Shown here one piece after another: positions 34,361 through 36,492 of a DNA stretch of 64,000 nt. Position 1 is the stretch's first letter. Each line of letters starts with the position of its first letter. Below the pieces are notes generated by a model, which searched no databases, was not told the DNA's origin, and saw only the letters and a list, made by a program, of their open reading frames with translations. This DNA comes from Propionibacteriales bacterium (GTDB taxonomy: Bacteria; Actinomycetota; Actinomycetes; Propionibacteriales; Nocardioidaceae), in NCBI GenBank assembly GCA_009377795.1, contig WHTJ01000002.1, forward strand, positions 62,001 through 126,000, written 5' to 3'. The position numbers and the translations under genes are program-made.

Positions 34361-34475
34361 TCACGGAGTCCGGTGGCCATATGGGTACACGCTCGATCGA
34401 TCAGCAGTGGTCGGTGTTGTGGAATTTTCGTTGTGGATAACTGGAAACGGGGTTCCGTTCGTCCATCGATGGGTG

Positions 34476-34509
34476 TAGTATCGAACACATGACCTGCATC
34501 TCTGCTTGA
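34476..34509 (+). promoter_or_regulatory. Stranded promoter and start codon of the HNH gene
   Basis: TAGTAT (34476-34481) could be a -10 box for a leaderless message starting at ATG 34489. That ATG lies in the left copy of the AACACATGA duplication. Translation from it would give only six codons (MTCISA) before a TGA inside the terminal repeat of the inserted element. The HNH gene's own ATG, in the right copy, is 315 nt downstream. Confidence 0.55.
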
Positions 34510-34807
34510 GTGCAGTAGTCCTCGTGAGGTGATGATCGAGGCGGCGGATCGGGTCGGCCGTCAGGACCTCTCAAGTACCGATCAGCAGATCCGGTCGTGG
34601 TTGCCCTGACGGGGCCTGTGTCAGCTACCTTCCGTGGTATGTAAAGGAATTCGCCTTACCGTCATCCGTGGTAAGTCCAAGACATGAGGATGCTCTTCTA
34701 TCTGCCGTCGCAGCGGGAGCCGTGAGACTGATGCGCACACCCGCTCACCAAGCTGATCGGCGGCCCCCCGCGGTAACTGCACTCAAGCAGAGATGCAGAA
34801 CACATGA
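34484..34807. mobile_element. MITE-like element with 23-bp terminal inverted repeats and 9-bp target duplication
   Basis: Perfect 23-bp inverted repeats lie at 34494-34516 (CTGCATCTCTGCTTGAGTGC...) and 34776-34798. They are flanked by direct repeats AACACATGA at 34484-34492 and 34799-34807; one extra C sits at the left junction. The ~305-bp interior has no convincing gene; it contains a small TTACC...GGTAA dyad near 34656. Layout (target duplication, inverted ends, no transposase) fits a non-autonomous insertion mobilised in trans. The transposase family cannot be named from the ends alone. Confidence 0.7.
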
Positions 34808-36492
34808 TCGAACCCAGGGAGGCCGTCGCCGGGCATGACCCGGCCAGGCTTGACCTGGCCGGGTTGGATGACGCCTCCCTGATCGACGCGTTGGGTGCCG
34901 CCAGGAGGCAGGCGGCGGTCTACGAGGCCCGGCAGCTCACTCTGATGGGTGAGCTTTATCGCCGCCGCCGATCCGAGGACCGTGACGATGTTCGGGTGGT
35001 GGGGGGGCGGTCGCAGACGTTGACCGAGCTGCAGCCCGTGCTGGCCCAATCAAGGTGCCGGCTGGGCAGCCGGCTACATCTGGCCGAGACATTGCACATG
35101 CGGTTGCCGCGGACTTGGGGGTTGCTGGCCGCGGGGCGGATCGATGAGTACACCGCCAGTGTGATCGTCTCCGAACTGGACAAGCTCACCGACGACACCC
35201 TGGTGCCGGTGGTGGAGGCGAAGCTGGTCGACCGGCTGGGCACCGGCGCCGACCAGACGGAGCCGGTGCGGGTTCCTCCGGCGCAGGTGGGCCGCTGGGC
35301 GCGGGTGCTGGTCGCGGAGACCGAACCCGACCGGCACGAGGAACGGTTCCGGAAGGGGGTTCGCCGACCGTGCGGTGCAGGTGTTCGGCACCGGTGATGG
35401 GTTCGCCGACCTGGTGCTGCACCATTCCAGCGCCGAACTCGAAGCCTTGTCACACCGGTTGAGTCTGATCGCCCGCCACACCGGTGCCGACGACCCGCGC
35501 AGCATGGACCAGCGGCGAGCCGATATCGCGGTCGACCTGCTCCTCGGACGCGCCGACTGCAACGTGGCGACCAGCAGCCTGGAGACCGGCGACGTTCACC
35601 CCGAACCCGACCCAGACCTGGACACTGAGACGGATACCGACACTAGGCCCGCTCCGGTACCCGAAGGTGGTGCCGACGGTATTGGGCCAGGCCACGCGCC
35701 TGTAACCCGAGGGCCGGGTGTGCGGTTGTCCACCCGTGGCCACGGCATCGGAGCCCAGATCAACGTGACGGTGCCGATCCAGACCCTGATCGGGGTCTCG
35801 ATCAGCCCGGACAACTCCTGAACGGGGAACCCGTCCCCGCGTCCCTCGTGCGGCGGATCGCCGCCGACCCGTCCTCGACCTGGTATCGGCTGCTCACCGA
35901 CCCGGCAGGCAACCTGCTCGACCTGTCCACCCGGTCCTACAAGCCGACCATGCCGTTGGTGCGGGCACTCGTGACCCGCGACCGGGTGTGTCCGGCACCC
36001 GGATGCACCACCAGCGCACTGGTCGAGGAGACCGACCACACCATCCGCCACAGCCACAGTGGTCCCACGTCGTATGGCAACACTGGGCGGTTGTGTCCGG
36101 CGCATCATCGGGCGAAGGAATCCCCCGGATTCACCCTGTCGCAACCCACGCCGGGGGTGTTCGTGTGGTCCTACCCGAGTGGGCATACCTACACCAGCGG
36201 CCCGGATCCGCATCCGGTCACCGACTGGCCCGACCACTGGCAGCCACCAGTGTCCGCGACCCAGTTGCAGGACGCGCTACGCATGCACGACCTCAACCGC
36301 CGCAGACGACACGACACCGAACTCCCTGACACCACCCGTCGGGTCCTCGAGACCCAGCTCCGGAACTGGTACGCCGCCGGTCCCGACGACCGCGACGAGC
36401 ACACCGACCCCCACGACGAACCCGTACTCGACACCGACACCGACACCGCCAGGACCCTCGGCGGCCTGCTCGAACGGACCGCCCTGAGCTAG
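34804..36492 (+). pseudogene. DUF222/HNH endonuclease (13E12-repeat family), copy A, two frameshifts
   Basis: Three overlapping frames together encode one ~560-residue DUF222 + HNH protein. N-terminal DUF222 (RRQAAVYEARQLTLMGELYRRR, AQSRCRLGSRLHLAETLHMRLPRTW) runs to ~35355. There GGGGG (35355-35359) has one G too many compared with copy B, shifting the frame. The middle part ends at TGA 35821 because one G is missing near 35800 (TCGATC where TCGGATC is expected). The C-terminal HNH is intact: CPAPGC, ETDHTI, GNTGRLCPAHHRAK. With the upstream insertion this copy is probably dead, unless the indels are sequence errors. Family role is poorly known; members are dispersed in actinobacterial genomes. 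Confidence 0.8.

Follow-up and report, generated by a model that had tools for sequence, protein, structure and literature searches.

Background

The insertion sequences (IS) of the IS1595 family (ISXO2-like, e.g. ISEc69 and ISApl4) are elements of about 1 kb with inverted ends, which encode a transposase with a Zn-ribbon and an ISXO2-type DDE domain and produce an 8-bp target duplication. ISEc69 and ISApl4 are described as preferring AT-rich 8-bp sites without a fixed motif (PMC7835479, PMC12561309; both sources were available to us only in part). Bacterial MITEs and mobile insertion cassettes are short and multicopy, contain either no gene or one passenger, share their ends with an IS and are flanked by a target duplication. 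Transposons that select a short palindromic sequence with a regulatory or recombination function are also known, such as the res-site hunters of the Tn5053/Tn402 group and the IS that target REP palindromes.

The mycobacterial SOS box, the LexA operator, is TCGAAC(N)4GTTCGA, with MKWMTCGAAMRYWTGTTCGA as its refined consensus, and the SOS regulon of M. tuberculosis includes 13E12 HNH genes; the portion of this source accessible to us describes no insertions into M. tuberculosis SOS boxes (PMC4181829). The RecA-dependent, mitomycin-induced set of the same species includes imuA', alkB, a DNA repair photolyase, five HNH endonucleases and lexA (PMC8151990, available in part).

Here we analysed a stretch of 64,000 nt from a Propionibacteriales bacterium (hereafter, the window), in which an earlier note had described a MITE-like insertion exactly at the start codon of an HNH gene. 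We conclude that this element is very probably an IS1595-derived MITE, from an actinobacterial clade that targets the LexA operator and whose transposase most likely reads the palindrome. The clade shares with the IS1595 family all the features listed above, but it is found in LexA operators, whereas the described members are found in AT-rich sites (PMC7835479, PMC12561309, as far as the accessible portions go). The MITE and a passenger-bearing relative on contig C36 are likewise similar to the described MITEs and cassettes, from which they differ in having a fixed operator target at the starts of SOS genes. Unlike the target of res-site hunters and REP-targeting IS, this one is the operator of the chromosomal SOS repressor and is spread over a regulon; the box, and the presence of 13E12-type HNH genes in the regulon, are as in M. 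tuberculosis. An IS1595 clade with operator-specific targeting appears to be new: in open-licence PMC text we found no report linking IS or transposon targeting to LexA boxes, which is weak evidence.

Methods

The genome of the window (4.58 Mb in 182 contigs) was searched with a 323-bp query. A 22-bp pattern of the element ends, with at most 2 mismatches, was searched in 341 genomes of the family, with the reversed pattern as control. Transposase searches covered 394 genomes of the class, 386 of the order, 386 of the phylum, two small orders (22 and 3 genomes) and plasmids. For relatives found through their transposase, the ends were located by the inverted repeats and the duplication, and the LexA box was not used. 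Many more distant relatives, whose ends remained unread, are outside the target comparison.

The target census comprised 26 elements in 14 actinobacterial genomes and one plasmid, with 38 outer ends. When only one end of an element was read, the boundary was taken from the aligned repeat and not from a duplication. The ends in the genome of the window are not all independent events. Not counted among the 38 were a duplicate end (G266:C9:1023-1044, an assembly repeat that follows an N), three ends of the G1247 array and four of the G1108 array (inner and far ends in both), and three ends found later. Of these last three, the one in G031 scored 7/8 and the two in G056, scored by eye, 6/8 each; the duplications of the G056 pair differ from each other.

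Results

The MITE occupies positions 34493 to 34799 of the window (307 bp, no strand assigned), which refines the size of about 305 bp proposed in the earlier note. The perfect 23-bp inverted ends that the note reported were confirmed at 34494-34516 and 34776-34798; they are nested in a 36-nt inverted pair with 86% complementarity. We place the left terminal inverted repeat at 34493-34516 (+ strand), its first base being C in the window and T in the other copies of this genome, and the right one at 34776-34799 (- strand). A target duplication is indeed present on both sides, where AACACATGA is found, but its length is 8 bp and not 9. Precisely, it is ACACATGA, at 34485-34492 and 34800-34807 (both + strand), and the apparent ninth duplicated A is the terminal base of the MITE itself beside a host A. 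A copy on a Sinomonas plasmid, in which the tips end in T, has a duplication of 8 bp.

The right half of the three full MITE copies is 81-84% identical to a 1,006-bp IS on contig C49 of the same genome. By tblastn, a decayed 3′ end of an IS1595 transposase gene (residues 281-317) was detected at 34627-34764 (+ strand), with an E-value of 0.023 in the window copy and of 2e-5 in the copy on C170; the DNA of this region is 81% identical to the C49 IS over 155 bp. Because of this identity and of the decayed transposase end, we consider the MITE an internally deleted IS. It is short, transposase-free and multicopy, with a target duplication and inverted ends common to an IS, and hence satisfies the definition of a MITE; its mobilisation in trans by a related transposase is inferred, as we have no transposition data. 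Its predicted RNA folding is strong (z -4.3), which is expected of any long inverted repeat.

The duplicated 8 bp form precisely the central part of a LexA (SOS) box, TCGA-ACACATGA-TCGA (34481-34492 plus 34808-34811). The left half of the split box, TCGAACACATGA, lies at 34481-34492 and the right half, ACACATGATCGA, which includes the ATG of the gene (34804-34806), at 34800-34811, both on the + strand. Without the element the site reads TAGTATCGAACACATGATCGA, and the restored box, TCGAACACATGATCGA, agrees with TCGAAC(N)4GTTCGA (PMC4181829, seen in part) at 11 of 12 positions; the centre of the refined mycobacterial consensus, AMRYWTGT, is compatible with the duplication ACACATGT.

A -10-like hexamer of the host promoter, TAGTAT (34476-34481, + strand), stands 7 nt upstream of the left ATG (34489-34491). 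This ATG is stranded: its frame (34489-34509, + strand) runs for six codons into the terminal repeat and ends at the TGA at 34507-34509. Box, ATG and stop codon are as the note had described them from the letters. Its claim that the gene was separated from its promoter also holds, as TAGTAT and the ATG at 34804 lie on either side of the MITE. No sigma-70-type promoter or terminator was predicted in the interval 34400-34900. TAGTG or TAGTGT precedes the intact boxes on contigs C24, C110 and C88.

The gene is of the DUF222/HNH (13E12) type (34804-36492, + strand) and, being frameshifted (pieces 34804-35397, 35375-35821 and 35848-36492), is probably a pseudogene. Its first piece matches PF02720 with an E-value of 3.2e-12, and its DUF222 match contains two internal TGA and one internal TAG. 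Downstream DUF222 genes are in several frames in the window, on C170 and C36 and at the end of C23. However, such decay does not amount to proof, since the uninterrupted DUF222 gene on C24 is also in several frames.

The note had suggested looking for an empty site upstream of an HNH homologue. A paralogous one, again TCGAACACATGATCGA, was found at C24:26461-26476, where the box is identical and both the promoter and the gene are homologous. The ATG was inside the LexA box in 5/5 DUF222 genes examined that have an intact box (on C24, C110, C88, C84 and C1). As these DUF222 genes begin within their LexA box, the MITE strikes a start codon; the ATG is duplicated, as the note stated, but its precise position there is explained as a by-product of LexA-box targeting. 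The DUF222 starts at loci L033, L031, L035, L040 and L036 of this genome lie within LexA boxes, with a TANNNT-like hexamer shortly upstream in several of them, and these are probably leaderless SOS genes in which operator, start site and start codon are superposed. The lexA gene of this genome is at C163:6776, with boxes having one mismatch upstream of it at C163:6430 and 6590. The binding of LexA to all these boxes and their induction by DNA damage are inferred, no binding or expression data being available.

The genome of the window has three full copies of the MITE and two cut by contig ends, 97.8-100% identical in pairs. Element ends occur in it at 13 places, and at all of them the outer 12 bases match the LexA half-box TCGAACNNNNGT at 6-8 of 8 positions. 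A full-length relative with a transposase and the same ends, which the note had proposed to look for, is the 1,006-bp C49 element, with PF12762 DDE_Tnp_IS1595 (1.2e-16) and the PF12760 Zn-ribbon (1.3e-14); its transposase gene, the only one of the clade found in this assembly, contains one in-frame TGA. The C36 element (595 bp, L029:1273-1867) shares these ends, lacks a transposase and bears a gene of the glyoxalase family (PF00903, 7e-9), which makes it a mobile insertion cassette. The box occupied by the copy on contig C51, TCGAACACATGTTCGA, is perfect and lies where an ORF begins that does not belong to DUF222 and has no Pfam match. With these near-identical copies, an IS1595-type IS with the same ends, the target duplication and the empty paralogous site, the reading of the element as a MITE is upheld.

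In the C49 and C36 elements the two duplications do not match. The left duplications of the two elements (L028:4295-5300 and L029:1273-1867; ACACACGA) agree better with each other than either does with its own partner, as would result from recombination between copies or from misassembly.

Outside this genome, the end pattern was found in 4 of the 341 family genomes, while the reversed-pattern control gave 0 throughout. A scan of named genomes pointed to Nocardioides sp. Root122, UBA4001 (a Nocardioidaceae MAG) and one MAG each of Aeromicrobium and Propionibacteriaceae as carriers. The outer ends in these carriers are LexA half-boxes with one exception (G557:C53). Among the relatives found through the transposase, the targets were TAGA-ACATTCGT-TCGA in G599, TAGA-ACACACGT-TCGA on the Sinomonas plasmid, TCGA-AGATGTGT-TCGA in G1221, TCGA-ACGAATGT-TCGA in G1238 and TCGT-AGCTATGT-TCTA in G1256. 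Single ends fitting the half-box were read in G1247, G949, G748 and G579, and the array in G1108 starts in TAGAATATATGT (6/8).

In the census, TCGAACNNNNGT was matched at 6/8 positions or better by 36/38 outer ends and at 7/8 or better by 31/38. When the same flanks were shifted outward by 1-48 nt as a control, the corresponding counts were 11/1,777 and 1/1,777. The two misfits are G557:C53, which is at a contig end, and the left end of the G579 element. Perfect 8-bp duplications flank 8 of the 12 elements with both ends read; the box scores of these sites are 11, 11, 12, 11, 11, 11, 12 and 9 of 12, and five of the eight are in other genomes and were recovered by the box-independent search. 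Conservation among the targets follows the LexA consensus, TCGAAC....GTTCGA, and is looser at the centre.

The clade belongs to IS1595, as its elements have the ISXO2-type DDE and Zn-ribbon domains (NF033547, 2.1e-48 in the Nocardioides copy) and produce the 8-bp target duplication required for membership. Among 47 IS1595 transposases placed in a tree, a single group with a support of 100/100 comprises the 12 LexA-targeting ones and 3 others, whose element ends were not read. All the other IS1595 elements with a resolved target (8/8) are outside this group, and their sites have a box score of 2-4 of 12. Thus, the LexA-box habit is a trait of one clade and is not general to IS1595. For three clade transposases of one genus (L151, L152, L159), comparison of their loci did not reveal the ends.

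The genes struck are DUF222/HNH genes at copies in the window's own genome, at L128 (1.2e-11), at L149 (5.3e-29) and in G1238 (3.2e-24), imuA' in G1247 (NF058630, 1.4e-52), an Rv2578c-type radical SAM gene in G1221 (NF038135, 3e-120; 401 bits, under the 430-bit cut-off, for a scanned piece of 300 aa), an AlkB-type 2OG-Fe(II) oxygenase gene in G599 (PF13532, 1.8e-15) and a GNAT gene in G949 (PF13508, 1.1e-8). The G748 site is beyond the 3′ end of a gene, and at L121, L150 and L130 no gene was assigned by Pfam. Since the struck genes resemble the RecA-dependent, mitomycin-induced set of M. tuberculosis, the targets follow the SOS regulon and not one gene family.

Discussion

We propose that the transposase would recognise the operator palindrome TCGAAC-N4-GTTCGA itself and make staggered cuts, 8 nt apart on the two strands and symmetrical around the dyad (TCGA-N8-TCGA, cut at the hyphens), so that the central 8 bp would be duplicated and half an operator would remain on each side. 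In the window, where the operator overlaps the ATG of a probably leaderless DUF222/HNH gene with the -10 box 7 nt upstream, the insertion splits the operator, parts the gene from its promoter and strands an ATG. Control by LexA should then be abolished, and expression probably too. Both the direct recognition of the box and these losses of control and expression are inferred.

The alternative that deserves most attention is that bound LexA guides the transposase to the operator, either through contact or through the bend it makes in the DNA, and that the transposase does not read the sequence itself. In its favour, the target positions are conserved as in the LexA consensus, with a looser centre. 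However, the cut falls at the centre of the LexA footprint, and one would expect, by inference, that bound LexA obstructs it there. Moreover, the later elements of the tandem arrays inserted at a junction where the host contributed no more than one half of the operator, and the six aligned clade transposases have no added domain beyond the two of IS1595. We regard guidance by LexA as unlikely, though not negligible.

Much less support is left for a loose specificity, such as TCGA-N8-TCGA, with persistence only of insertions in dispensable SOS genes. DUF222 genes are in fact multicopy and several are decayed in this genome, as such survivorship would have it, but the window contains 13 TCGA-N8-TCGA palindromes and none of them is struck, and the inner AC....GT of the operator is conserved among the targets as well. 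Intergenic non-LexA insertions should persist too, and related IS1595 clades do have non-LexA sites.

That the target is the start of DUF222/HNH genes, as a repeated family, and not the LexA box itself is suggested by most copies in this genome and by those at L128, L149 and G1238. We discarded this as hardly tenable, since it is contradicted by the non-DUF222 sites: the same register is found at imuA', at the Rv2578c-type, alkB-like and GNAT genes and at the unrelated gene on C51.

An ordinary conserved leader of the HNH gene, which the note had named as the finding that would refute it (the same sequence upstream of many HNH homologues without target duplication), has practically no standing, because, although the same ~300 bp does lie upstream of several HNH homologues of this genome, its mobility is already evident from the target duplications, the two orientations, the empty paralogous site, the copy in the box of an unrelated gene and the transposase-bearing relative with the same ends.

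With recognition of the palindrome by the transposase as the preferred reading, insertion may also be gated by the SOS response, given that in the absence of DNA damage the boxes are occupied by LexA. Cleavage of LexA would expose the target, insertion would be confined to cells with damaged DNA and single branches of the SOS regulon (imuA', HNH nuclease genes) would be rewired. We offer this licensing only as a prediction, possible but rather doubtful at present.

A transposon lineage landing on the operator of a global stress regulator would represent a new form of target selection and would preferentially mutate one regulon, so that single SOS genes, including those for mutagenic repair, could be uncoupled from LexA. 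If it reads a 12-bp palindrome, the transposase would stand out among DDE enzymes for its sequence specificity. A simple prediction is that insertion depends on LexA occupancy.

We also considered whether the TCTG/CAGA tips of the element rebuild a LexA box at each junction, and dropped this idea: by eye, the tips match the lost half at 0-2 of 4 bases, and they vary between copies.

Clade elements form tandem arrays at L177 (G1108) and L178 (G1247). Their members seem to have entered the same box successively, re-using the 8-bp duplication at the junction; the internal ends adjoin other copies instead of full boxes, and at its far end the G1247 array departs from the register by 3 nt. A scan of viral sequences gave one relative (47%), with flanks unlike the LexA box. 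As for passengers, the element on the Sinomonas plasmid NZ_CP014519 (L140:1442-2959, in a LexA box) carries an Imm8 immunity gene (PF15586, 3.7e-31) beside the transposase, and two clade elements of ~2.09 kb (L146:372-2462 and L147:380-2468) carry different passenger ORFs without a Pfam match.
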